Shown one piece after another: positions 49,496 through 63,184 of a stretch of DNA of 64,000 nucleotides (positions are counted from its first letter, which is position 1; each line of letters begins with the position of its first letter). The translations under genes were made by a program, and so were the position numbers. The stretch lies in assembly GCF_000724085.1 (NCBI RefSeq), contig NZ_CCDL010000001.1, positions 1,116,001-1,180,000 on the forward strand. The letters run 5' to 3'. Below the pieces are notes generated by a model. That model ran no database searches. It saw only the letters and a list, made by a program, of their open reading frames with translations, and was not told where the DNA came from. This DNA comes from Oceanobacillus manasiensis (GTDB lineage: Bacteria > Bacillota > Bacilli > Bacillales > Amphibacillaceae).

Positions 49496-50626
49496 ATGGA
49501 ATCGACAAAAGTGAAAGAAAGAATATTCCTCTCTTCACCACATATGAGTGATGAAGGTTATGAAATGCAATATGTTAAGGAAGCTTTTGATACAAACTGG
49601 ATCGCGCCCCTTGGTGAAAATGTAAATGGCTTTGAAAGAGAGCTAGCTGAGAAAGTCGGTTCAAAATCTGCTGCAGCACTGTCTTCAGGTACAGCTGCTA
49701 TCCATCTAGCTCTTAAAGCAGCAGGAGTCGGGGAAGGGGATATTGTATTCTGTCCAACACTTACTTTCTCTGCAACTGCAAATCCAATCATCTATCAAAA
49801 TGCTATTCCTATATTTATCGATAGTGATTATGAAACTTGGAATATGAGTCCGAAAGCATTGGAAGAAGCTTTTGAAAAATATCCAGAAGTGAAAGCAGTT
49901 ATCGTTGTTCATTTATATGGTTTATCCGCTGATATGGACAAGATAATGGATATATGTAAGAAACATAGTGTAGCGGTTATAGAGGATGCTGCTGAGTCAT
50001 TGGGCACTTACTATAAAGGTAAGCATACTGGGACTTTTGGGGATTATGGCATCTTCTCTTTTAATGGAAATAAGATTATCACTACTTCTGGTGGTGGGAT
50101 GCTTGTTTCTAATAATGTAGAACGAGTTGCAAAGGCAAGATTTTGGGCCACTCAATCCCGAGATCAAGCGAGACATTATCAACACAGTGAATTAGGATTT
50201 AATTATAGGATGAGTAATGTTGTGGCTGGGATTGGTAGAGGACAGCTTAAGGTGTTGGATCAAAGAGTTGCCAAGAAAAGCTACATTTTTGAGTTTTATA
50301 AAAGAGAGCTTGGTGGGCTTGAAGGCCTTGAATTCATGCCTAGCAATGAATGGGATGAACCAAATTATTGGTTAAGCTCGATAACATTGTCTGGTAAAGT
50401 AAGGCCTATTGATATATTTGAAGCATTGGAAGCTGAAAATATCGAGTCGAGACCCGTATGGAAACCAATGCATATGCAACCTTTCTTTGAGAAGTATGAT
50501 TTTGTTGGAACGGATGTATCGGAGAAATTGTTTGGAAATGGTGTTTGTTTGCCGTCTGATACGAAGATGACAGATGAAGACTTAGAAAGAGTGGTTAAGA
50601 CTATTAAAGGGTTGTGGTTAGAATAA
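49496..50626 (+). CDS. DegT/DnrJ/EryC1-family sugar aminotransferase (PglE/EpsN type)
   Basis: 376-residue PLP enzyme, predicted to aminate the 4-keto sugar made by the membrane dehydratase. SSGTAAIHLALKAAGVGEGD is the N-terminal signature, VIEDAAESLG holds the PLP-contacting Asp, and the Schiff-base Lys is Lys193 in FSFNGNKIITTSGGG. RPVWKPMHMQPFF is the family C-terminal block. AAGGAAG upstream of ATG. Its TAA overlaps the next ATG by one base. Confidence 0.94.
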   Translation: MESTKVKERIFLSSPHMSDEGYEMQYVKEAFDTNWIAPLGENVNGFERELAEKVGSKSAAALSSGTAAIHLALKAAGVGEGDIVFCPTLTFSATANPIIYQNAIPIFIDSDYETWNMSPKALEEAFEKYPEVKAVIVVHLYGLSADMDKIMDICKKHSVAVIEDAAESLGTYYKGKHTGTFGDYGIFSFNGNKIITTSGGGMLVSNNVERVAKARFWATQSRDQARHYQHSELGFNYRMSNVVAGIGRGQLKVLDQRVAKKSYIFEFYKRELGGLEGLEFMPSNEWDEPNYWLSSITLSGKVRPIDIFEALEAENIESRPVWKPMHMQPFFEKYDFVGTDVSEKLFGNGVCLPSDTKMTDEDLERVVKTIKGLWLE

Positions 50627-51270
50627 TGAAGAATTTCAATGGTGGTATTTATAGGAGATTTGTAAAAAGACCGATGGATTTTATGCTATCATTAATCGCC
50701 ATTATTGTTCTTAGTCCGGTACTTCTAGTAGTTGCAATTCTTGTGAGAACGAAATTAGGTAGCCCTGTTCTTTTCAAGCAAAAGAGACCAGGGCTTAATG
50801 AAGAGATTTTTATGATGTATAAGTTTAGGACTATGACTGATGAAAAAGATGATAAAGGGGTGTTATTACCTGATAGTGTTAGGTTGACGAAGTTTGGTAG
50901 GTTGCTACGTTCTACATCTCTTGATGAACTACCGGAACTTCTTAATATTTTGAGGGGTGATATGTCCATTATTGGCCCTAGGCCATTACTGGTGCAGTAT
51001 TTACCGTTGTATAACAATCATCAAAAACGACGTCATGAAGTCAGGCCAGGGCTATCTGGTTTGGCGCAGGTTAGTGGTAGAAATGCGATTAGTTGGGAAG
51101 ATAAATTTAATCTCGATGTTGAGTATGTGCACAATGTAAGTTTCATTGAGGATTGGAAGATAATAGTTTTGACCATAAAAAAGGTTTTCGTTAGAGAGGG
51201 TATTAATTCAGAAACTGCTGCAACAATTGAGCCTTTTAAGGGAACCAAAAAGGAAAAAATGGAAATATGA
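50626..51270 (+). CDS. Initiating sugar-phosphate transferase (PglC/EpsL type)
   Basis: 214-residue monotopic phosphoglycosyl transferase that puts the first sugar-1-phosphate on undecaprenyl phosphate. One re-entrant N-terminal helix (MDFMLSLIAIIVLSPVLLVV), then GSPVLFKQKRPGLN, MYKFRTM, LLRSTSLDELPELLNILRGD with the catalytic Asp-Glu pair, and SIIGPRPLLVQYL. Short, core-only form like PglC. Coupled to the aminotransferase (TAATG) and to the acetyltransferase (four-base overlap). Confidence 0.95.
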   Translation: MKNFNGGIYRRFVKRPMDFMLSLIAIIVLSPVLLVVAILVRTKLGSPVLFKQKRPGLNEEIFMMYKFRTMTDEKDDKGVLLPDSVRLTKFGRLLRSTSLDELPELLNILRGDMSIIGPRPLLVQYLPLYNNHQKRRHEVRPGLSGLAQVSGRNAISWEDKFNLDVEYVHNVSFIEDWKIIVLTIKKVFVREGINSETAATIEPFKGTKKEKMEI

Positions 51271-51890
51271 AAAACAAACTTTTAATAATTGGTGCTAGCG
51301 GCCACGGAAAAGTTGTTGCGGACATTGCGATAAAAATGAATAAATGGCAGAGTATTGCTTTTTTAGATGACGACAAGAGCATCAAATCATCAATGGGTTT
51401 AGAAGTCATTGGGACTTCAAATGATGTTTTTACACATATAGATGAGTATGAAATATTTGTAGGTATTGGTAATAATAATACGAGACAAAGGATCTACGAA
51501 ATGCTTGAAACATTTGGTACCAGTATTCCTAATTTAATTCACCCTAAAGCAGTAATCGGAAATCAAGTGGATATAGGTACAGGGACAGTTGTAATGGCAG
51601 GAGTAGTTATTAACTGCTGTACTAAAATAGGTAGAGGTTGCATTATCAACACTGGTTCTACAATAGATCATGATAATTGTATTGAGGATTTTGTTCATAT
51701 TTCACCTGGAGTTCATCTAGCGGGTACTGTGAAAGTGGGACAAGGATCCTGGTTAGGAATTGGTAGTGTAGTAAGTAATAATGTGAGTATTACAAGTGGT
51801 TGTATAGTTGGTGCAGGATCGGTTGTAATTAAAGATATTGATGAACCTGGAACATATACTGGTGTTCCAGTGAGGAGAGTTAAAGCATGA
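51267..51890 (+). CDS. Sugar N/O-acetyltransferase (PglD/EpsM type)
   Basis: 207 residues. N-terminal sugar-nucleotide domain (LIIGASGHGKVVADIAIKM), then a left-handed beta helix of hexapeptide repeats (IGNQVDIGTGTVVMAG ... VGQGSWLGIGSVVSNNV). The catalytic His is in STIDHDNCIEDFVHIS. With the dehydratase and aminotransferase it would give a UDP-diacetamido-trideoxyhexose such as UDP-diNAc-bacillosamine. Overlaps both neighbours by four bases. Confidence 0.93.
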   Translation: MKNKLLIIGASGHGKVVADIAIKMNKWQSIAFLDDDKSIKSSMGLEVIGTSNDVFTHIDEYEIFVGIGNNNTRQRIYEMLETFGTSIPNLIHPKAVIGNQVDIGTGTVVMAGVVINCCTKIGRGCIINTGSTIDHDNCIEDFVHISPGVHLAGTVKVGQGSWLGIGSVVSNNVSITSGCIVGAGSVVIKDIDEPGTYTGVPVRRVKA

Positions 51891-52972
51891 AAGTTCTAGT
51901 GTTAGCAAACTTTGGTATGGGTTTATATAATTTTAGAAAAGAGTTATTAGAAGAATTGATTAAGCAGAATAATGATGTTTACATTTCTTTACCTAAGGAT
52001 GAATATGTACCAAAGTTAAAAAGTTTAGGATGCAAATTCGTAGATATCCATTTAGATAGACGTGGGACAAATCCACTAACAGAATTTAAGCTATTACTTA
52101 ATTATATAAAATTAATAAAAAGCATTGGGCCAGATGTTGTTTTAACATATACGATTAAACCTAATGTTTATGGTGGCTTGGCTTGTAGATTATCTAATGT
52201 TCCTTATATAGCAAATATTACAGGCTTAGGGACTGCTGTTGAAAATAGAGGGGTATTACAAAAAGTCACTTTATTCCTATATAAAATATCATTAAAAAAA
52301 GCGAAATGTGTGTTCTTTCAAAATAGAGATAATAAAGAGTTTCTTACTGAACAGAAAATAATTAAAGGCAATTATAAAATATTACCGGGTTCTGGTGTAA
52401 ATCTTGAACATTATTCTTTATTGGATTATCCACCAGACGATAATATAAATTTCTTATTTATTTCACGAGTAATGAAAGAAAAGGGGATTGATCAATATTT
52501 AGATGCTGCCACTTATATAAAGAAGAAATATCCAAATACAGCCTTTCATATAGTAGGTTTTTGTGAGGAGACATATGAAGATAAACTTAAAGAAATGCAA
52601 AATAAAGGTATTATAATATACCATGGCAAACAAAATGATGTTAGGGAATTCCATAAAATATCGCATTGTACAGTTCATCCCACCTATTATCCCGAAGGTA
52701 TGTCCAATGTATTGCTTGAAAGCGCAGCTTGCGGGAGGCCAATTATTACTACTAATCGGAGTGGTTGTAGAGAAATAGTTGATGAAGCTATAAATGGATT
52801 TGTTGTTCAACAGAAAAATAGTAAAGATTTGATAGCTAAAATTGAAAAGTTCATATCTTTAAGTTATGAAAAAAAGAAAAGATTGGGATTAAGTGGTAGA
52901 AACAAAGTGGAGACAGAATTTAATCGACAAATTATTGTTGAAGCGTATAAAGAACAAATAATAAATATCTAA
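51887..52972 (+). CDS. GT4-family glycosyltransferase (PglA-like)
   Basis: 361-residue cytoplasmic GT-B enzyme. N-terminal LVLANFGMGLYNFRKELL and DVVLTYTIKPNVYGGLAC, and C-terminal FLFISRVMKEKGIDQYLDAA, HPTYYPEGMSNVLLESAACG (E-x7-E donor motif). This pattern is typical of transferases acting second, directly after a bacillosamine-type sugar. Start ATG overlaps the acetyltransferase stop (ATGA). The acceptor inference rests on position. Confidence 0.92.
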   Translation: MKVLVLANFGMGLYNFRKELLEELIKQNNDVYISLPKDEYVPKLKSLGCKFVDIHLDRRGTNPLTEFKLLLNYIKLIKSIGPDVVLTYTIKPNVYGGLACRLSNVPYIANITGLGTAVENRGVLQKVTLFLYKISLKKAKCVFFQNRDNKEFLTEQKIIKGNYKILPGSGVNLEHYSLLDYPPDDNINFLFISRVMKEKGIDQYLDAATYIKKKYPNTAFHIVGFCEETYEDKLKEMQNKGIIIYHGKQNDVREFHKISHCTVHPTYYPEGMSNVLLESAACGRPIITTNRSGCREIVDEAINGFVVQQKNSKDLIAKIEKFISLSYEKKKRLGLSGRNKVETEFNRQIIVEAYKEQIINI

Positions 52973-52992
52973 GAAGGTAATGGTATTGAATA

Positions 52993-54144
52993 ATGAAAAA
53001 AATCATGTTCTTGGAGTCAAGGTATGACTCCTTCTATGGCGCGCAAAAAAGTATGCTAAAACTTATACAAGGTCTTGATAGCAATAAATTCAGTTACAAA
53101 GTAGTGACAACTGGGGACGGTAAATTAATGAAAGGGTTAGAAGAAAATAATGTTCCAGTTGATGTGTTGAAATTAGGGGAAAAAGCTAATGTTTTTGGAG
53201 GAAAGGTTTTAGACTACTCTATTTTTGAAAAAATTGTAGTCATTCTTCAAATCATTATATATAACATAAAGTTGATACACTATATTAAGAAAAACAATAT
53301 TGATATTGTATATGTAAATGATTTAAGGGCCTTTTTATATTCTGTGATAGCAACAAAATTGTTACGGAAAAAAAATGTATGGTATATCAGGGCTGATATT
53401 ACTAATTCTTTTCTTACAAACCTGGGTCTTAGATTTTCAAATAAGATTATAACAATTGCTCATGGGGTATTAGAACATATTCCTCAGGAGAAAATTGAAA
53501 AATTTAATTATAAAATAACAAATATTTATACGGGTTTTGACTTTGATCAATATAAAATTTATGAGAAAAAAGAATCAAAAATAAACTTTGGAATATCAAC
53601 GAACAAGCATGTTATTGGTTACTTAGGCTCAATAAATGAAAGAAAAGGGCTGGACGTTCTTATTGATAGTTATATTGAAGTTTCTAAAATCTATAATGAC
53701 TTACACCTTCTATTAATAGGGGATGTGAGTACCGGCTATGAAGAATATTGGGAACAGCAATCGAAAAAATTGGAAAGCGAAGATGTAGCATTTTCACATC
53801 AACCTTTTAGAAAAAATGTGAGTCAAGCATTTAGCGCAATGGATACATTTGTTTTACCATCGAATTCAGAAGGGTTGCCTAGAGTAGTGATAGAAGCTAT
53901 GGGGCATAAACTTCCTGTAATAGCAACGGATGTTGGTGGTACAAAAGAGGTGATACCAAGTGATGAGTTTGGCATTATAATTAGAAAAGGAAATACAAAC
54001 GAGCTCATACACAGTATCAAGCTATTAAAAGAGGATAAGGTTTATAGATCTAAACTGAGCCAGAAAGGACAGGAATTTTGTAAAACAAATTTCTCTAACA
54101 ATAGATTTGTCAGAGAAATTAACGATTATTTTGGGAGAATTTAA
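52993..54144 (+). CDS. GT4-family glycosyltransferase
   Basis: 383 residues, GT-B fold. IMFLESRYDSFYGAQKSMLK at the N-terminus, VIGYLGSINERKGLDVLIDS and VLPSNSEGLPRVVIEAMGHK in the donor-binding half. DNA is visibly more AT-rich than in the first part of the locus, as is common for exchanged capsule genes. Donor and acceptor unknown. Begins 20 bases after the preceding gene. Confidence 0.9.
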   Translation: MKKIMFLESRYDSFYGAQKSMLKLIQGLDSNKFSYKVVTTGDGKLMKGLEENNVPVDVLKLGEKANVFGGKVLDYSIFEKIVVILQIIIYNIKLIHYIKKNNIDIVYVNDLRAFLYSVIATKLLRKKNVWYIRADITNSFLTNLGLRFSNKIITIAHGVLEHIPQEKIEKFNYKITNIYTGFDFDQYKIYEKKESKINFGISTNKHVIGYLGSINERKGLDVLIDSYIEVSKIYNDLHLLLIGDVSTGYEEYWEQQSKKLESEDVAFSHQPFRKNVSQAFSAMDTFVLPSNSEGLPRVVIEAMGHKLPVIATDVGGTKEVIPSDEFGIIIRKGNTNELIHSIKLLKEDKVYRSKLSQKGQEFCKTNFSNNRFVREINDYFGRI

Positions 54145-54217: not shown

Positions 54218-55399
54218 ATGAAAAATATATTAGTATGTGGTGTAGGAAATTCAAAAAATTTAGGGGATCGTTTAATTGCAGAGACTGTTAATCTAATTAT
54301 AAAAAAGATTAACAATCAATACCGGATTACAAATTTTGATTTTACTATGGGAAGCATTGATGATTTACCTAAAAAGCCTAACATTAAATTAAACTCGGAA
54401 AGTCTAATTAAAAAATTTACACCTAATACATTAAGAAGATTTAAAGTATATTCAAATTATAAAAAAAACACAGGGTTAAAGATTGAACTAAAGAAGAGAG
54501 TAATGGAATCAGACATTGTGGTTATTGGTGGGGGACAATTATTAATCGATAATTGTCTTAATTTCCCTCTAGGGATAAAAAATGTAATAGATGAGGCTAA
54601 ACGGTATAATAAACCTGTGATCTTTACTTTTGTAGGAGGAAGAGCACCTTGGGGAGAAAGGGCTAAAAGCCTTTTTTTAGAAGCGCTAGAATATTCAAGT
54701 TATATCTCTGTCCGAGATAGCGATACTAAAGCATTTTTAGTCTCTCTTGATCCCGGACTCAATAAAAAAGTAATAATTACGTCCGACCCCGCTTTGTTTT
54801 TAAATGAAATGTGTTCTATTAAAAGTAATAATAATTCAAAAACGCAAATTGGACTAGGAGTTATGGATCCTAATGAATTTAAAAAAAGTAATGATTCATT
54901 TGTTAGCAGAAAAGAGTGTGCTAGGTGGTGGACATCTTTAGCTGAAAAACTAGTATCCTATGGTTACGAAGTTAATATATTTACCAATGGAGCTCCCACA
55001 GATAATGGTTTTGTTGAATATTTTTTAAAGACACAGTTGGAAAAAACAAAAGGGGTATCTATTAGAAAGTACCCAAGCAATTATGAAGAACTAATAGATG
55101 TCATATACCAGCAAGATTTAGTTGTTGCACAAAGATTACATGCATGTCTACCTTCTATTTCATTTATGAAACATACATTTGGAATTAAGTGGGATATAAA
55201 GGTACAAAGCATTTTTAAAGAGTTAGAACTTGAAGACTATTTGATTAACTTTAAAGAGAACACAGATGAGATTGCAATAGCAATTCATAATAAACTTCAA
55301 AAGAGTGGTAACTTAGATATAAAAGTTTCAAAAAATATCCAGGACAAAAAAAGGGAGATGTTAAACTTTGTCAAAGCAGGTCTTGGAGAGGAAAATTAA
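54218..55399 (+). CDS. Polysaccharide pyruvyl transferase family protein
   Basis: 393 residues of the CsaB/WcaK/AmsJ family, which add a pyruvate ketal from phosphoenolpyruvate to a sugar. ILVCGVGNSKNLGDRLIAET is the typical start, VVIGGGQLLID the glycine-rich loop, SVRDSDTKAFL, and DLVVAQRLHACLPSISF with the conserved Arg-His. The frame is open from 54107 and overlaps the previous gene; ATG 54218 gives the normal N-terminus, though its ribosome site is weak. A pyruvyl group would add negative charge to the polymer. Confidence 0.9.
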   Translation: MKNILVCGVGNSKNLGDRLIAETVNLIIKKINNQYRITNFDFTMGSIDDLPKKPNIKLNSESLIKKFTPNTLRRFKVYSNYKKNTGLKIELKKRVMESDIVVIGGGQLLIDNCLNFPLGIKNVIDEAKRYNKPVIFTFVGGRAPWGERAKSLFLEALEYSSYISVRDSDTKAFLVSLDPGLNKKVIITSDPALFLNEMCSIKSNNNSKTQIGLGVMDPNEFKKSNDSFVSRKECARWWTSLAEKLVSYGYEVNIFTNGAPTDNGFVEYFLKTQLEKTKGVSIRKYPSNYEELIDVIYQQDLVVAQRLHACLPSISFMKHTFGIKWDIKVQSIFKELELEDYLINFKENTDEIAIAIHNKLQKSGNLDIKVSKNIQDKKREMLNFVKAGLGEEN

Positions 55400-56513
55400 G
55401 GTTCTACATGTAGTAGGGAGTATGACAGCCGGTGGATTAGAAACATTAATAATGAATTTATACAGGAACATGGATAGAAGTAAGGTACAGTTTGATTTTG
55501 CTGTTCAAACAAATGAAAAATGTTTTTATGATGATGAAATTATTCAAAAAGGCGGAAAAATAATACCACACCCCAAACCAAGTGATAATCTAATAAAGTA
55601 TAAAATGGCCCTTAAGGAAACTATTAAAAAGTACGGTCCATATGATGTTATACACAGCCATGTTCTTTTCTTTAGTGGAGTAGTAATTGATATTGCAAAT
55701 AAAGAAAATATACCTATTAGAATTGCACATAGTCATACTTCCAATAATAGCAAGTATAACTCACTTTTGAGGAAAATGTATAAAAGGATAATGAGAAAAA
55801 AAATAATTAACAATGCTACTCACCTGATTGGGTGCTCCAGTGAAGCTTGTGAATTTTTGTTTGGAAATAATTCACTAGAAGCAGGGATTACGCGACACTT
55901 TCCTAATGCAATAGACCCAAAAAGGTTTAAAACATTAAAAAAAGATAGTAATTATCTTACTAATGAACTTAAATTACCAGATGATTCGCTGATAATTGGA
56001 CATATTGGTCGTTTTACAAAGGCAAAAAACCATGTTCTTCTAATAGAAGTATTTACCGAGTACTTAAAGCGAAATGCAAATGCTCACCTAATATTAGTAG
56101 GAGATGGTGAGGAAAGAAAATGTATTGAACAATTAGTCTATGAGAATATGATAGAAGAAAATGTACATTTTTTGGGTTTAAGAGAGGATATTGAAAAGAT
56201 CCTGTCAGCAATAGATTTATTTCTTTTTCCATCATTATATGAAGGGTTGGGTATTGCTTTAATAGAAGCACAAGCAGCAGGGGTGCCTTGTCTCATATCC
56301 GATACAATTCCAGTTGAAGCCGATCTAAACATTGGTCTAGCCCAGAGACGTAACCTTTCTGATAAGAATGATGAGTGGGTGCAAGCAATAGATGAGGTTA
56401 AAAAAATAGAAAGTCCAAGCTGGGATAATAGAGAATCTGCTTTAAAAGATACAGGATATGATATTAATATTAGTTCGAAAAAGTTGTTGAAAATATATAG
56501 TGGTGAAGAATAA
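55368..56513 (+). CDS. GT4-family glycosyltransferase
   Basis: 381 residues, GT-B fold. VLHVVGSMTAGGLETLIMNL is the common start of EpsF-like GT4 enzymes; IGHIGRFTKAKNHVLLIEVF and FLFPSLYEGLGIALIEAQAA (E-x7-E) form the donor side. TTG start 55368 behind AAGGGAG, inside the last codons of the pyruvyl transferase gene, implies coupled translation. Third glycosyltransferase of the locus. Confidence 0.92.
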   Translation: MSKQVLERKIKVLHVVGSMTAGGLETLIMNLYRNMDRSKVQFDFAVQTNEKCFYDDEIIQKGGKIIPHPKPSDNLIKYKMALKETIKKYGPYDVIHSHVLFFSGVVIDIANKENIPIRIAHSHTSNNSKYNSLLRKMYKRIMRKKIINNATHLIGCSSEACEFLFGNNSLEAGITRHFPNAIDPKRFKTLKKDSNYLTNELKLPDDSLIIGHIGRFTKAKNHVLLIEVFTEYLKRNANAHLILVGDGEERKCIEQLVYENMIEENVHFLGLREDIEKILSAIDLFLFPSLYEGLGIALIEAQAAGVPCLISDTIPVEADLNIGLAQRRNLSDKNDEWVQAIDEVKKIESPSWDNRESALKDTGYDINISSKKLLKIYSGEE

Positions 56514-57341
56514 ATGGAGTTAATTATTGTAAAATAGGAACATTGTGGTCATTGTTAGGGTAACTTGCTAATGAAGTATTCGGTTTTCTGGTACTTAAAA
56601 CTAGATTTTTGATCTGACTAATACGGCCTTTTACAAACTATTCACCACTGAATGTATTAACAGTGCCAATCTGTCACTTAGATTTTTCTTCTTTTTGAAT
56701 AAGTTCATATGTTTCATTACCCGTCAATTAACATACGTCTGTCAAAAAGATTAGTCTATTACGAGGTTCCAATGTTTTGTTATTTCAATGAGTTTTTATC
56801 TCTATATAAAACAGGCATTTAAAGGTAGCAATTGCGTAATCTACAGTCTTGTTCTTGTAACTTTCTGAATAGGATAAGCGAAACACTCAATTAATACAAA
56901 TAATTAAAAGTGGCCTTTTTAATAGCTTGTCTATGCGTTTAGGGTTACTTTTGGTTACAAAGGATTTTAATTATAATATTTTTTGCGCAGATTTCACACT
57001 AACTATATTTTTGTTTCGTTATAGCTTGAATTCAGTTTATCAATATATTTATTTTAATGGATGGTATAATTAATATCTCTCAATGGGAATCATATAACAC
57101 TTGTACTCCCAATAATATTTTTTTGAGAAAAACTGGGGATTTTTCCATCTTCTAGTTTTGACATAATCACTTGGTTAGATAGGCAAACTTTACATCTTAG
57201 AGTCTTATTAAACAAACGATTAATAAAAAACGGAGAGCAATCGTTTGTTTAATAATGCTAATACGGAAGTTTGCTATTAAACCGATAAAAATTACTAAAA
57301 AAGTTGAATGACAGCAGAAGTCAACTCAGGAGTGTTTGTTT
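56514..57341. other. 828-bp gene-free stretch in the polysaccharide locus
   Basis: AT-rich with stops in all frames. The only clear structure is a nested inverted repeat at 57183-57274. Possibly a scar of gene loss or an old insertion; I recognise no protein remnant here. Confidence 0.45.
57183..57274. repeat. Nested inverted repeat
   Basis: Inner arms TTATTAAACAAACGATT (57205-57221) and AATCGTTTGTTTAATAA (57239-57255) are perfect over 17 bases with a 17-base loop. Outer arms GCAAACTT (57183-57190) and AAGTTTGC (57267-57274) are also exact. It ends 67 bases before the polymerase gene and lacks a T-run, so it is not a simple terminator. Confidence 0.7.
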
Positions 57342-58565
57342 GTGGAATATATTTATAAAATAGAAAAAAATTATAGGCATTTAAAAACGGCAGCTTTTAT
57401 TTTCTTTTTTGCTTATTCTATACTTTTTGTTTTACTTGGTAGGGTTCTGTTTGGGGTTGATGAAACGATTGCTATACTTATACTTACAGTAGCACTCTTA
57501 CCCTTTATTTTGATGTTAAACGAAATGAAGGGTAGGAATATAAACATTATTGCTCTTATTATTCCTGGAGTAATTATGATATTAGGTAAAATAATGTATG
57601 CTATTATTTTAGACCCTTTGGCCACTTTAGATGCTACAAGATATTACGTCCAAGTTGCTCAATATCAACATAATTTTGACCAGTTTCTAGATTTCTTTTG
57701 GGCTAGTTTTACAACAGATTACTTAATGATGTCTTCGTATCCATCATTTGGTATTGTTTATTTACCTATGTATATTTTATTTAATACTGATAGCCCATTA
57801 TTAATCGTATTATTTAATTCCACCAACTTGATATTAATCTCTTATTTTTCATATTTGATTACAAAAAGACACTTTTGGCAAGAGGTAAATAACACTTTAT
57901 TTTCTAGATTAATTATAGCAGGGCTGTTGATTAGTCCTACTCTTATGTATTGGAGTTCCACTTTTTCAAAAGACATATTTAGTGTATTGTTAGCGATAAT
58001 TTCATTGTATTTTCTATTAGACAAACGATACATTTTGTTTTTTTTGTTTCTCGTTTATTCAACCATGTTAAGGCCATATTCAATTGTTATTATTGCAATT
58101 TACTATGTGTTTTACAGAGGTTCAAAAAAATTAATGTGGATGGGGGTATTAGGCTCTACCGCAGTTGTAGCATATTATGTTGGGGTGAAAGGAGTTGTTA
58201 ATATATTTAACACTCTGGCATACCTGATTGCATCACCGAATCCTTTTAGTTTAGTAAATTGGGATAGATTCTTTTTGCTTGAAGTGGAGATTTTGATTCT
58301 TTTGGGCGGATTAGCCTTATCGTTTTATGTGTTTATTAATGATAAGCAAAGTCGTAAATTTTATCTATTAGCACTAGGTGGGCTTTATATATATTCTTGT
58401 GTGATGACTCTGCTGGGATTCGGGGTAATTGATGGAAGAGAGCAGTCATATAGTTTGGGAAGCGTAGGGGACGACATGTCAAGAAAAAAACTACCTATAA
58501 TAGTTTTGTATTATACTGTTATTAGCTATACGATTGTTAGGTTAAGTAAAAAGTATCATTGGTAG
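57342..58565 (+). CDS. Wzy-like polysaccharide polymerase
   Basis: 407-residue polytopic membrane protein with about 10-11 helices and a large loop around DPLATLDATRYYVQVAQYQH. SPTLMYWSSTFSKDIFSV and YSTMLRPYSIVIIAIYYVFY (Arg in the LRP turn) resemble capsule and O-antigen polymerases. The family is very divergent, so the call rests mainly on topology, locus and the presence of Wzx. GTG 57342 is spaced properly from CAGGAG; TTG 57336 is too close. Confidence 0.75.
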   Translation: MEYIYKIEKNYRHLKTAAFIFFFAYSILFVLLGRVLFGVDETIAILILTVALLPFILMLNEMKGRNINIIALIIPGVIMILGKIMYAIILDPLATLDATRYYVQVAQYQHNFDQFLDFFWASFTTDYLMMSSYPSFGIVYLPMYILFNTDSPLLIVLFNSTNLILISYFSYLITKRHFWQEVNNTLFSRLIIAGLLISPTLMYWSSTFSKDIFSVLLAIISLYFLLDKRYILFFLFLVYSTMLRPYSIVIIAIYYVFYRGSKKLMWMGVLGSTAVVAYYVGVKGVVNIFNTLAYLIASPNPFSLVNWDRFFLLEVEILILLGGLALSFYVFINDKQSRKFYLLALGGLYIYSCVMTLLGFGVIDGREQSYSLGSVGDDMSRKKLPIIVLYYTVISYTIVRLSKKYHW

Positions 58566-58642
58566 TTTCACACATTTAGATGATCTCTGTTTATTATTTC
58601 CGACTCAACGATTATGAAAGATATAACTTGGAATGAAAACTT

Positions 58643-58886
58643 TTAGATGCTGAAATATCTTATCCAAAAGAAACGAAAACTGAGATTAGAAAAAAACGTA
58701 AATTGGATATTTTGATAAGGTTAGCTGAAAAGCTTTCTGCTGGATTTCTGCACACGAGAATTGAATTTTATAGTACTAAGGAGAGTTATCTTTGGTGAGG
58801 TCACTTTCTTTCATCAAAATGGAATGAGAAAGTTTAATCCTCCTGAATTTTAAGAGAGAGTTGGTAACTATTTGAACTACCTATAA
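58643..58886 (+). pseudogene. Decayed TupA-like ATP-grasp gene (C-terminal remnant)
   Basis: Frame 1 (58643-58798) reads LDAEISYPKETKTE, then ILIRLAEKLSAGFLHTRIEF and YSTKESYLW-stop. A +1 shift continues VIFGEVTFFHQNGMRKFNPP and EF-stop (58851), and ERVGNYLNYL-stop to 58886. Joined, this is the C-terminal pattern of TupA-like ATP-grasp proteins of teichuronic/capsule loci (IAEKLS..F.FVRVDFY, FGELTF, G..KFNP.E). At least one frameshift and one in-frame stop. Upstream parts (58600-58640) are too decayed to follow. Confidence 0.72.
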
Positions 58887-59142: not shown

Positions 59143-60345
59143 ATGGTTATTATTGAGGAACCATATATAAAAAGAAATGGGGAATATTCCCGTTTATGTG
59201 CTGATGTTTTTATAGATAATAAAAAGTATGAAATGTTTTATGAGGTAGAAAATGAATATGAAAAGTATCTTTGCACTGAAAGAATAGATGCTTTTTTAAT
59301 TGGATTACTACCGTATGCTTTAAAACATAATCTTGATATTTATTCCAAGTACGAGGTTTCTGAAAAATTATATTATCAAATTAAGACTATATTAATACCA
59401 GTATTATCAAGATATATTTCCAATTATAATACTGTAAACGTTGAGGCTAAAGTTAGTTACAAAAAATTGCCAAATAAAGGTGCTGTAGGTACAGGTTTTT
59501 CTGCGGGGGTAGATTCATTTCATACACTTTACAATAATACCAATTTAGAAATAAGTAGTTATAATATTACCCACTTAACCTTTTTTAATGTTGGTTCACA
59601 TGGGTCAAAAGGAGGAAGCGAAGCAAGAAGTCTATACAGGAATAGAATGAAAAAGGCGAAAATTTTTGCTGAAGAACAAGAGTTTAAATTTGTTTCTGTT
59701 GACTCTAACCTCAGTGAAATATTAAGGCTAGAATTCGTTCAAACTCACACTTTCAGGTCATTATCTGCTGTCTTGGCATTACAAAAATTGTTTGGTGTAT
59801 ATTATTATTCTTCTGGTTTTCCCATAGATCAATTTTCAATAAAGGAAGATTCAACAGCTTATTATGATTTATTAAATGTTTATTCGCTATCAAATAATAA
59901 TGTTTCTTTTTATTCAACTGGTTTAATTGAATCTCGCTTAGAGAAAGTAAAACAAATTTCGGAGTATAAGAAATCATATAAATATTTAAATGTTTGTGCG
60001 AAGGGGGATTATAATTGTGGTAAGTGTGAAAAGTGCAAAAGAACAATTTTAGAATTTTATTCTATAAATAAACTACAATTATATAGTGATGTTTTTGATG
60101 TAGATTTATTTAATAAGAAAATAGAAAAATATTTAGGTTTTATGATAGCTAATAAAAAGAACGAAAATTATAAAGAAATTTATATAGAATTAAAAGAAAG
60201 ACATATTGAAGTACCGCTAAAAGCATACTTTTATGGAATGAGATATTTTGCTTTAAAAAAATTAAAGCTGTTACTAAGGAATAAAAAATTCAGCAGATAT
60301 GTATATGATAAATACCTTAGAAAGCAATTTAAAACGGACGCCTGA
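59143..60345 (+). CDS. QueC-like PP-loop ATPase family protein of unknown role
   Basis: 400 residues. FSAGVDSF at 119-126, after GAVGTG, is an SGGxDS-type PP-loop, the ATP-pyrophosphatase site of QueC, asparagine synthetase and related adenylating enzymes. A Cys cluster near 285-298 (C-x6-C-x2-C-x2-C in CAKGDYNCGKCEKCKR) matches the zinc site of QueC 7-cyano-7-deazaguanine synthases. A ~110-residue N-terminal domain and a basic helical C-terminus are additions to the QueC core. No other queuosine gene is near. The locus context suggests ATP-dependent modification (for example amidation) of a sugar or nucleotide-sugar; this is inference. Confidence 0.72.
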   Translation: MVIIEEPYIKRNGEYSRLCADVFIDNKKYEMFYEVENEYEKYLCTERIDAFLIGLLPYALKHNLDIYSKYEVSEKLYYQIKTILIPVLSRYISNYNTVNVEAKVSYKKLPNKGAVGTGFSAGVDSFHTLYNNTNLEISSYNITHLTFFNVGSHGSKGGSEARSLYRNRMKKAKIFAEEQEFKFVSVDSNLSEILRLEFVQTHTFRSLSAVLALQKLFGVYYYSSGFPIDQFSIKEDSTAYYDLLNVYSLSNNNVSFYSTGLIESRLEKVKQISEYKKSYKYLNVCAKGDYNCGKCEKCKRTILEFYSINKLQLYSDVFDVDLFNKKIEKYLGFMIANKKNENYKEIYIELKERHIEVPLKAYFYGMRYFALKKLKLLLRNKKFSRYVYDKYLRKQFKTDA

Positions 60346-60350
60346 ATACT

Positions 60351-61700
60351 ATGATTAGAAAAATACTTAAAAGGGTAAATATTTCAAAAAACAAAAAGAA
60401 TGTTGCAAAGATTTCAACGGGAACGATGTTAGGTCAACTAATTTCTTTAATAACACTACCAGTTCTTACACGGATATACGGTGCTGAAATATTTGGTATA
60501 TGGGCTTTAATACATTCACTTTCACTTATTATTAATTCATTTTCTGACTTTGGCTTATCCTATTCTTTAATGGTAGAAAAAGATAATAAAATACCAAAAG
60601 GTTATAAAATCATCTCAACTATATCCCTGTTTATAAGTCTATTGTCAAGTCTAATTCTAACTTTATTTTATGTATTTATGAACGAAGATATAATGGTTAG
60701 TTATAGTATTTTCTTTGTATTGATATTTTTAACTTCTTTCCTATCACAGCAAGTTCAAATATGTTATACATGGCTAAATAGAAAAGAAGAGTATGATGTT
60801 TTAATGAAAAATCCTATACTTAATCAAAGCATTTATAGTGTAGTTGGTATAATGTTAGGTTTTTTAGGATTTGTTCAATATGGTTTTTTTATTGCACATA
60901 TTCTAGGTTCGTTTGTAACCTTAATAAATATGAAAAGTAAATTACCGAAGGGCTTAGTAACATTTGATTTTAAGGAGATATATCTATATATTAGAGAAAA
61001 TCGAAAATTCGCACTTTATCAAACACCGACCAATTTCAGTAATAATTTAAAAAGTCAGACACCCACATTACTCATTAATTCTTTATGGGGATCCGAAGTA
61101 TTAGGTTACTACTCAATAACTATAAGAATATTAAAAATCCCAGTAACTTTACTAGGACAGGCTATAGGTAGGGTGTTTTTCCAAGTTGTTACAAAAATGA
61201 AGCGCCAAGGGGAAGAAATTGGTGAATATGTTTTAAACAATATATTTAAGGCTATGAAGGTTTCTGTTCTTCCTATAATACTATTGGTAGCATTTGGTGA
61301 TATAGTAACTGTTCTTTTTTTAGGGGAAGAATGGGTTGTTGCAGGTCATTTTGTAATGATTTTAGCCTTTCAATACTTTTTTATGTTTCTTCAAAGTTCG
61401 GTACAAGGATTAGCAATAACAATAGAAAAACAAAAATATGCAATGATAGCAAATTTATTACAAGTGATTGGAATAATAGTTTCACTCATTGTTGGAAAAT
61501 ACTTATTTGATAGTATATATTTAGCTTTAATACTAATGGTAATACTGTTTACTATTATTCATATATCATATTTTTGTGTACTTTTTAAAGTAATGAAAGT
61601 GAATCGATTAAGCTATGTGATAAAAGTAGTAATTAATTCGTTGATAATTATTCTTACCTCATTTATTTTAAGAAATATATTTAATTATATATTTAATTAG
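60351..61700 (+). CDS. Wzx-type polysaccharide flippase
   Basis: 449-residue membrane protein with about 12-14 helices of the MOP/PST exporter superfamily. ISTGTMLGQLISLITLPVLT and RIYGAEIFGIWALIHSLS are the classic first-helix region. Moves lipid-linked repeat units across the membrane for the polymerase. Starts five bases after the PP-loop gene, so the two are one transcript. Confidence 0.92.
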   Translation: MIRKILKRVNISKNKKNVAKISTGTMLGQLISLITLPVLTRIYGAEIFGIWALIHSLSLIINSFSDFGLSYSLMVEKDNKIPKGYKIISTISLFISLLSSLILTLFYVFMNEDIMVSYSIFFVLIFLTSFLSQQVQICYTWLNRKEEYDVLMKNPILNQSIYSVVGIMLGFLGFVQYGFFIAHILGSFVTLINMKSKLPKGLVTFDFKEIYLYIRENRKFALYQTPTNFSNNLKSQTPTLLINSLWGSEVLGYYSITIRILKIPVTLLGQAIGRVFFQVVTKMKRQGEEIGEYVLNNIFKAMKVSVLPIILLVAFGDIVTVLFLGEEWVVAGHFVMILAFQYFFMFLQSSVQGLAITIEKQKYAMIANLLQVIGIIVSLIVGKYLFDSIYLALILMVILFTIIHISYFCVLFKVMKVNRLSYVIKVVINSLIIILTSFILRNIFNYIFN

Positions 61701-61810: not shown

Positions 61811-63184
61811 ATGCACAAAATAGCAGTAGCAGGAACAGGTTACGTAGGCCTTGTAGCCGGAGCGTGTTTTTCAGAGGTTGGCCACAACGTAACTTGTGTC
61901 GATATTGATGAAAATAAAGTAAAGACAATGAAACAAGGTATTTCTCCAATTTATGAAGAGGGATTGGAAGAATTGATGCAGAAGAATTATGCTGCTGGAA
62001 GAATTGATTACACGACAGATTATCAAACTGCTTATAAGGATGCAGACGCCATTTTTATTGGAGTAGGAACTCCGGAGCAAGCTGATGGATCTGCTAATCT
62101 ATCATATATTGCAACAGTTGCAAGACAAATCGCAGAATCAGTTGAAAAGGATTGTCTAGTTGTCGTAAAATCCACTGTACCAGTTGGGACAAATGATAAG
62201 GTGGAGCAATTCATCAATGACTTCCTAGTTAATGATGTACGAGTAGAAGTTGCATCTAACCCAGAGTTTTTAGCACAAGGATCTGCTGTGAAGGATACCT
62301 TACAAGCTGAACGTATTATTATTGGGACGGAAAGTAAGTGGGCGGAAGATGTGTTATTGGGTCTATACGAGCCATTTAACCTGCCAATCGTATCTGTTAA
62401 TAGAAGATCAGCAGAGATGATCAAATATGCCTCCAATGATTTTCTAGCTTTAAAAATATCTTACATGAACGATATCGCCAATCTTTGTGAGTTAATTGGT
62501 GCGGATGTTCAGGATGTAGCAAGAGGGATGAGCTTCGATGATCGGATTGGAAGTAAATTCTTGAATGCAGGCATTGGCTATGGTGGATCATGCTTCCCGA
62601 AAGACACCAAAGCACTTGAGAACATTGCGAAACAAAATGGCTACGAACTAAAAACAGTTAAAGCTGCAATTGATGTAAACAAAGAACAAAAGACACTACT
62701 ATACAAGAAAGCAAGCAAACGTCTTATTACATTTAATGGTCTGAAGGTTGCCGTGCTTGGACTAACGTTTAAGCCAGGAACGGATGATTTAAGAGAAGCA
62801 CCATCCTTAGAAAATGTTCCTCTTCTATTAGAACAGGGCGCTGATATTTATGCGTATGATCCTGTTGGTGCTGAGAATTTTGCTAAAGTTCATCCAGAAG
62901 GGCCTAAAGCAAAAGGAAGCATTACATATGTTTCAAATGCCGAACAAGCATTGAAAGATGCACATGTATGTTTTGTATTCACCGAATGGGGAGAAGTTAA
63001 AGCTGTAACTCCAGAGCAGTATGGCGAATTAATGCGTACCCCTCTAGTCTTTGATGGAAGAAATATCTATGATTTACAAGAGATGGCTATTGCAGGTGTT
63101 GAGTATCATTCTGTAGGTCGAAATACAGTAACGAAAGAAGATATAAAGGAGACGAAAAACCATGCCGTACCAAACGCTAGATAA
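61811..63184 (+). CDS. ugd: UDP-glucose 6-dehydrogenase
   Basis: 457 residues. IAVAGTGYVGLVAGACFSEV is the NAD site; the catalytic Cys is in GIGYGGSCFPKDTKAL; SNPEFLAQGSAVKD and GLTFKPGTDDLREAPS are family blocks. Oxidises UDP-glucose (from GalU, 47.2 kb) to UDP-glucuronate with two NAD. AAAGGA site before ATG. Its 3' end overlaps the epimerase start by 23 bases. Base composition is again closer to the early part of the locus than to the AT-rich middle. Confidence 0.96.
   Translation: MHKIAVAGTGYVGLVAGACFSEVGHNVTCVDIDENKVKTMKQGISPIYEEGLEELMQKNYAAGRIDYTTDYQTAYKDADAIFIGVGTPEQADGSANLSYIATVARQIAESVEKDCLVVVKSTVPVGTNDKVEQFINDFLVNDVRVEVASNPEFLAQGSAVKDTLQAERIIIGTESKWAEDVLLGLYEPFNLPIVSVNRRSAEMIKYASNDFLALKISYMNDIANLCELIGADVQDVARGMSFDDRIGSKFLNAGIGYGGSCFPKDTKALENIAKQNGYELKTVKAAIDVNKEQKTLLYKKASKRLITFNGLKVAVLGLTFKPGTDDLREAPSLENVPLLLEQGADIYAYDPVGAENFAKVHPEGPKAKGSITYVSNAEQALKDAHVCFVFTEWGEVKAVTPEQYGELMRTPLVFDGRNIYDLQEMAIAGVEYHSVGRNTVTKEDIKETKNHAVPNAR

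Follow-up and report, generated by a model that had tools for sequence, protein, structure and literature searches.

Besides acting on tRNA bases, QueC-fold enzymes are now known to modify proteins in anti-phage defence. As set out in the accessible part of PMC13279940, members of the QueC family use ATP to activate a carboxylate that is then attacked by nitrogen, supplied as ammonia in QueC and as a protein N-terminus in Cap9, and an N-terminal glycine serves as acceptor in CBASS and probably also in Qat. Mutation in each of the motifs YxQxHxxE, VPxRN and YPDC inactivated E. coli QueC, whose canonical cysteine motif is C-x8-C-x2-C-x2-C (accessible part of PMC13329287). The QueC-superfamily survey in that paper started from PF06508 and, in its accessible text, describes clusters of QueC, QatC, LarE, a PfkB-linked group, WbpG, GMP synthase, Cap9 and three archaeal groups. 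Within polysaccharide loci, PP-loop enzymes are represented by the WbpG/PseA N-acetyl sugar amidotransferases, and sugar carboxylates in glycan pathways are amidated by the uronamide synthases WbpS and WbqG, which the accessible part of PMC7468200 places among relatives of AsnB (asparagine synthetase).

The window analysed here, a 64,000-nucleotide stretch of the Oceanobacillus manasiensis genome, contains what looks like a Wzx/Wzy-type polysaccharide locus that includes a gene for a PP-loop enzyme (Table 1). Further upstream lie genes for an AAA_31 ATPase (CpsD-like by position), a CpsB/CapC protein, two LuxR-type regulators, a Polysacc_synt_2 protein and a nucleotidyl transferase. Between a glycosyltransferase gene and that of the likely polymerase, about 820 bp (56514-57335) hold no ORF of at least 120 aa and gave no match in the 15 best rows of a tblastn search with all locus proteins; this interval is possibly another lost gene.

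Table 1 Features of the window and of the PP-loop protein encoded in it
Feature	Coordinates	Strand	Remarks
DegT aminotransferase, bacterial sugar transferase, PglD-type hexapeptide protein	49496..51890	+	
Two GT1 glycosyltransferases	51887..54144	+	
Polysaccharide pyruvyl transferase PF04230	54107..55399	+	E 4.3e-26; partner recurring with the family
GT1 glycosyltransferase	55368..56513	+	
Membrane protein, likely Wzy polymerase	57336..58565	+	7 hydrophobic segments, no Pfam match; assigned by position and hydropathy only
TupA-like ATP-grasp remnant (C-terminal part)	58580..58877	+	Frames broken; tblastn E 1.5e-9; directly upstream of the PP-loop enzyme gene
QueC-fold PP-loop enzyme gene	59143..60345	+	ATG start, 400 aa, TGA stop, intact ORF
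N-terminal domain, RNase H-like arrangement	59143..59478	+	Residues 1-112; weak structural matches, best Z 5.0
PP-loop SAGVDS	59500..59517	+	Residues 120-125 of the 400-aa protein
Four-cysteine cluster C285, C292, C295, C298	59995..60036	+	Presumed zinc site
Wzx-type flippase	60351..61700	+	PF13440 E 1.2e-24
UDP-glucose/GDP-mannose dehydrogenase family protein	61811..63184	+	PF03721 E 4.4e-63

A first-pass annotation made from the letters alone had described a gene five bases ahead of a flippase gene, encoding an SGGxDS-type loop (FSAGVDSF) and a C-x6-C-x2-C-x2-C cluster. The distance from the stop codon to the flippase ATG at 60351 is indeed five bases, and both motifs are present and near-invariant in an alignment of 76 family members that share 27-44% identity with the window protein. 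FSAGVDSF occupies residues 119-126, and the cysteines run C285-x6-C292-x2-C295-x2-C298, followed by K-R-T. All 76 aligned members contain S-x-G-x-D-S, eleven columns are invariant (S120, G122, D124, S125, G151, R265, C292, C295, K297, C298 and F318), C285 is conserved in 75 of the 76, and no cysteine column beyond the cluster's four reaches 75% conservation. Such near-invariance of the PP-loop and cysteine positions across 76 members indicates that the motifs in the window are not chance occurrences. Among relatives in which the cysteine pattern was found, the first spacing varies from x4 to x12; the x6 of the window protein is a variant of the x8 given for QueC in the accessible part of PMC13329287. 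By analogy with QueC and QatC, as described in the accessible parts of PMC13279940 and PMC13329287, the cluster is presumed to bind zinc.

QueC resembles the window protein in its PP-loop, its four C-terminal cysteines and its core fold, but the two differ where QueC recognises its substrate. The motifs YxQxHxxE, VPxRN and YPDC, as defined in the accessible part of PMC13329287, are absent from the window sequence, and the alignments show FNVGSHG and THTxR blocks in their place. The conserved blocks F-x-N-V-G-S-H-G (147-154) and Y-Y-Y-[AS]-S (220-224) have no QueC counterpart. PF06508 was not listed for the window protein at E up to 10 and matched 0/76 members at E 0.01. When the family profile was compared with one built from 15 QueC sequences, the probability was only 20%, over 61 columns surrounding the PP-loop.

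The AlphaFold2 model built with the 76-member alignment (pLDDT 95.1, pTM 0.92) contains a Rossmann-like core with a PP-loop, as in PP-loop ATP pyrophosphatases; strands and helices at about residues 1-112 come before this core, and consecutive helices follow it. The additional domains at both ends that the first-pass annotation proposed are thus real in the model, and its call of a QueC-like PP-loop fold is borne out by a QueC-type core that, among solved structures, matches QatC and Cap9 best. A PDB search with Foldseek alone gave nothing significant (best E 0.039); the QatC and Cap9 matches come from a second look with VIA-align, a rescoring of Foldseek's own candidates. Ranks 1 and 2 in this rescoring are QatC (9y01_B: Z 13.5, rmsd 5.0, 299 residues, spanning model residues 1-363) and rank 3 is Cap9 (9nto_B: Z 11.3, rmsd 3.2, 170 residues, model residues 113-306), while other PP-loop enzymes (argininosuccinate synthase, LarE, TilS and others) score Z 8.9 or less, and no row named QueC is among the matches listed, which carries no weight for or against. 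These rankings suggest that the modelled core is a PP-loop domain nearest to the defence members of the QueC family. Folded alone, the N-terminal domain (pLDDT 96.4) gave RNase H/integrase-like matches, all weak, with Z 5.0 or less, which do not show homology to the N-terminal extension of QatC; QatC itself was not among the rows listed, which again counts neither way.

QatC, from the qatABCD anti-phage system, is thus similar in several respects: a QueC core with N- and C-terminal extensions, a similar length, an SGGxDS loop and four cysteines (accessible part of PMC13279940). However, identity in the structural alignment is 11%, the window protein stands in a glycan neighbourhood and matches no QatC model, and the zinc pattern of QatC is C(x)19CGxCxxRR as opposed to C-x6-C-x2-C-x2-C-K-R-T. 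Cap9 of type IV CBASS shares the core fold but, according to the accessible part of PMC13329287, is about 185 aa long, lacks extensions and carries a CDG-binding YxDC motif, which is absent from the window protein. WbpG/PseA proteins are set apart by description, with a cysteine pattern (CxxC(x)6CxC; accessible part of PMC13329287) unlike that of the window protein, for which no NCBIfam model of this group gave a match; WbpS and WbqG, as AsnB relatives, belong to another family. The family DUF6395 (PF19932) gives a weak sequence match in 9/76 members (best E 6.9e-5); in the window protein the match covers residues 273-329 at 16 bits, below the 25-bit cut-off, and among 398 Bacillota genomes one matched, also below the cut-off. 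Sequence searches of the PDB returned chance-level matches only, PHROGs gave a weak QueC-like match (E 0.066), and the NCBIfam, PADLOC, phage and single-protein genome-contig searches gave nothing useful.

Among 200 related genomes the family occurs in nine, including the window's own (G000; 3.8 Mb, 99.94% complete) and that of a congener (G001). A one-genome-per-species scan with the alignment of these nine sequences as query gave 172 relatives, of which the best 80, representing 79 loci, were retained and make up 80 focal loci together with the window. By their record titles, these best 80 include Bacillota, Bacteroidota, Verrucomicrobia, Lentisphaerae, Planctomycetes and Proteobacteria, as well as Leptolyngbya, Gastranaerophilales, Armatimonadia, Gemmatimonadetes, WOR-3 and the archaeon Methanolobus. 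The 76-member alignment omits L020 and L054, for no particular reason, and deliberately leaves out two broken copies, one from a Clostridia MAG with a frame break (L056) and one from an Acinetobacter MAG with an in-frame stop within the cysteine cluster (L083:222-1403). Second or third copies within one genome were seen for L047 and L049 and in G344 (L058), G363 (L093), G360 (L087) and G353 (L077, L084), several of them in tandem. Two Paracoccus yeei plasmids (L209, L210) carry a 32% identical relative within a longer 'hypothetical protein'; these relatives sit among catabolic genes, outside polysaccharide loci, and are an exception.

The family is apparently undescribed: its fold and class of chemistry are already known, and the family itself and its PF04230 partner are new. 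It is absent from the clusters described in the accessible part of the QueC-superfamily survey (PMC13329287), and the starting model of that survey, PF06508, fails to recognise it. Judged by the titles and abstract openings of the best matches listed, the literature on QueC and capsules, on QueC-like and QatC proteins, on PP-loop ATPases and polysaccharides, and on QueC and pyruvyl transferases describes the family nowhere, and searches on DUF6395, PP-loop with pyruvyl transferase and amidated pyruvate gave no paper, with thin coverage of subscription journals.

In order to place the family in its genomic setting, the focal loci were compared with 72 flippase-centred control loci from Bacillota without the gene, called with the same code, and with 48 control flippase sites; all controls are from Bacillota and exclude the window's genome and its congener. 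The controls include 15 loci, mainly SpoVB/MurJ-like matches of about 515 aa or longer, several with an adjoining PF04230 gene. Genes were called by longest ORF, which leaves some genes hidden in GC-rich loci (for example L069), and the focal loci are not mutually independent. The polysaccharide setting expected from the window recurs among the homologues: in the fetched flanks, at least one of eleven profiled glycan-type families is present in 71/80 loci and at least two in 64/80, with none in 9/80.

Polysaccharide pyruvyl transferase (PF04230) stands out among the neighbours. Using our own PF04230-type profile on the fetched flanks, one method for both sets, it is found in 39/80 focal vs 9/72 control loci (p 1.5e-6). 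The same profile gives 21/32 vs 9/72 within Bacillota only (p 1e-7), 15/20 vs 8/48 for Bacillota loci with at least two glycosyltransferases (p 8e-6; across the full sets this requirement drops 34/80 focal and 24/72 control loci) and 10/12 vs 7/48 for matched Bacillales (p 1.3e-5). Because this profile was seeded from focal loci, the curated Pfam model was also compared, and because flanks of about 10 kb miss parts of long loci, the curated model was searched in 47 carrier genomes, which cover 40 of the 41 loci whose flanks had no PF04230 and in which the focal gene was placed on the same contigs. Combining both models for the focal side, PF04230 lies within 10 kb or is fused in 44/80 focal loci vs 8/48 control sites (p 2e-5), and within 35 kb or fused in 59/80 vs 9/48 (p 2e-9). 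With the family collapsed at 60% identity, 46/64 clusters have PF04230 within 35 kb. No PF04230 was found within 35 kb on the contig in 21/80 loci, some but not all of them on short contigs. L087 was not counted, as its own copy has no PF04230 on its contig; in the same genome, G360, two further family copies lie about 300 bp from PF04230.

In 19/80 focal loci PF04230 directly neighbours the family gene or is fused to it. Of these, 15 have it as the adjacent called gene (on opposite strands in L034 and L091), three more show adjacency by coordinates (99 bp in both L069 and L084, 378 bp in L082), and in L061 (WOR-3) the family enzyme and PF04230 form one 707-aa protein (PF04230 E 5e-10). Since 6/48 control flippase sites likewise have PF04230 no more than 500 bp away, the enrichment is one of presence in the locus and not of contact. 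When neighbours were clustered in an unbiased way, with 57 control loci for comparison, the short PF04230 type proved the most widely distributed of the enriched partners, spanning 7 taxon groups in 11 loci and occurring in 0/57 controls. At the genome level PF04230 is common (70/100 relatives), and in a mirror-tree analysis the distance correlation with PF04230 (0.43) was no higher than that with flippases (0.56) or glycosyltransferases (0.45 and 0.51).

We tentatively propose that these proteins are a QueC-fold family of polysaccharide-modifying enzymes, separate from QueC, QatC, Cap9 and WbpG, that activate a glycan carboxylate with ATP, likeliest that of a pyruvyl substituent, and convert it to an amide. 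The link to pyruvylation is supported by position, and the chemistry is drawn by analogy: an ATP loop and cysteine cluster that are kept, base-binding motifs that are replaced, and loci shared with pyruvyl transferases suggest a glycan carboxylate as substrate, most simply pyruvyl. ATP would be held by the SGGxDS loop and the carboxylate adenylated with release of PPi, after which ammonia or an amino compound, acting as the nitrogen nucleophile, would displace AMP to form the amide, with the putative Cys4 zinc site in a structural role. The likeliest acceptor would be the carboxyl of a pyruvyl ketal put on from PEP by the polysaccharide pyruvyl transferase. Modification would presumably take place on the lipid-linked repeat unit, before flipping, and would yield an amide or amine conjugate that has lost a negative charge. 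No report of an amidated pyruvyl sugar was found, and the accessible part of the pyruvylation review PMC6801904 contains none.

An unlikely alternative is that the carboxylate amidated belongs to another sugar, a uronic or nonulosonic acid, that the nitrogen comes from ammonia or an amino acid, and that the link to the pyruvyl transferase is indirect. In its favour, NeuB is present in 15/80 loci and, among loci with at least two glycosyltransferases, in 14/46 focal vs 3/48 control loci (p 0.003, with a control that is not taxon-matched); however, 14 of the 15 NeuB loci are from Bacteroidota, a group without a matched control, and 12/15 also have PF04230 within 35 kb. UDP-sugar dehydrogenases are not enriched, with 10/80 focal (8/32 in Bacillota) vs 33/72 control loci. 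A uronic acid substrate had come into consideration through the window's dehydrogenase gene, together with two opine-type dehydrogenases elsewhere, but gained no support from the control survey. The first-pass annotation had named the carboxyl group of a uronic acid or pyruvyl sugar as the possible target; gene position favours the pyruvyl sugar and lends no support to the uronic acid.

The two opine-type genes lie directly upstream of the family gene, one of octopine-dehydrogenase type (L020:4833-5915) and one of alanine-dehydrogenase type (L028:8996-9949), both in loci with a UDP-sugar dehydrogenase in the flank; these enzymes may make an opine-type amine. TupA-like ATP-grasps stand on both flanks in L047, and a TupA remnant remains in the window. 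All of these neighbours could fit amidation of another carboxylate, and together they hint at an amine, although they are single cases and not enriched (TupA, 2/80 focal vs 3/72 control loci). Among further neighbours, FrhB is raised in Bacillota (9/32 vs 4/72, p 0.003) and CapA marginally so (4/32 vs 1/72, p 0.03), both uncorrected for the number of families. A CapA-type poly-gamma-glutamate gene adjoins the family gene in L022, L023 and L024 (position -1) and in L092 (position +1), from Bacilli MAGs and Nitrosomonas (called by Pfam in L022 and L092 and by clustering in L023 and L024), and FrhB-type genes occur near the family gene in these loci.

We regard as quite improbable a reaction of reverse polarity, in which a small carboxylic acid, once adenylated by the enzyme, would be joined to an amino sugar. 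Such N-acylation would have a precedent in Cap9, the third structural match, which joins CDG to an amine and so makes an amide (accessible part of PMC13279940), and the window encodes a DegT aminotransferase; yet DegT-type aminotransferases occur in 9/80 focal vs 20/72 control loci, and the recurrence of PF04230 would be left unexplained. Transfer of sulfur to give a thiocarboxylate, as in LarE or ThiI-type PP-loop enzymes, is very improbable: LarE, ThiI and MnmA do appear lower down among the structural matches (Z about 7 to 9), but no cysteine outside the cluster is conserved at 75% or above, and the cluster itself has a pattern matching QueC.

A role as canonical QueC was rejected on the missing PF06508 match, the absent substrate motifs and the gene content of the nine carrier genomes. 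In six of them (G000, G001, G039, G064, G084 and G107) neither a full-length QueC nor QueD (PF01242) was found, nor a QueE above the cut-off of TIGR03365, the B. subtilis-type model and the only one used for QueE. Only partial QueC matches to longer reading frames, of about 26 bits or less and some just above the 22-bit cut-off, were found in these six, compared with about 277 bits for a real QueC. In the other three (G075, G083 and G157), QueC, QueD and QueE are all present, side by side elsewhere in the genome. From this gene content, the window genome and its congener seem unable to make queuosine precursors de novo. Because the family persists in hosts that apparently lack 7-carboxy-7-deazaguanine synthesis, it probably acts on a different substrate. 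A use in defence is likewise unlikely, because PADLOC listed no QatC or Cap9 for any of the 76 members and glycine is at position 2 in only 5/146 flanking genes, with starts called mechanically. Although QatC and Cap9 are the best structural matches, the reading as canonical QueC or as a deazaguanylating protein modifier of a Cap9/QatC-like defence system is thus disfavoured to the point of being scarcely credible, the neighbourhoods too being mostly glycan genes.

A separate branch of QueC-fold enzymes tied to glycan assembly and pyruvylation would widen the picture of what this fold does. It is possible, if doubtful, that this is the first enzyme family to turn the carboxyl of a pyruvylated sugar into an amide or an amino-acid conjugate, through recruitment of the QueC fold to surface glycans across many phyla. 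Pyruvyl groups contribute negative charge, so their conversion to amides would change the cell surface. If true, the proposed activity would represent a new means of neutralising or decorating acidic surface polymers, for which the pair of family gene and PF04230 gives a direct handle for biochemistry.
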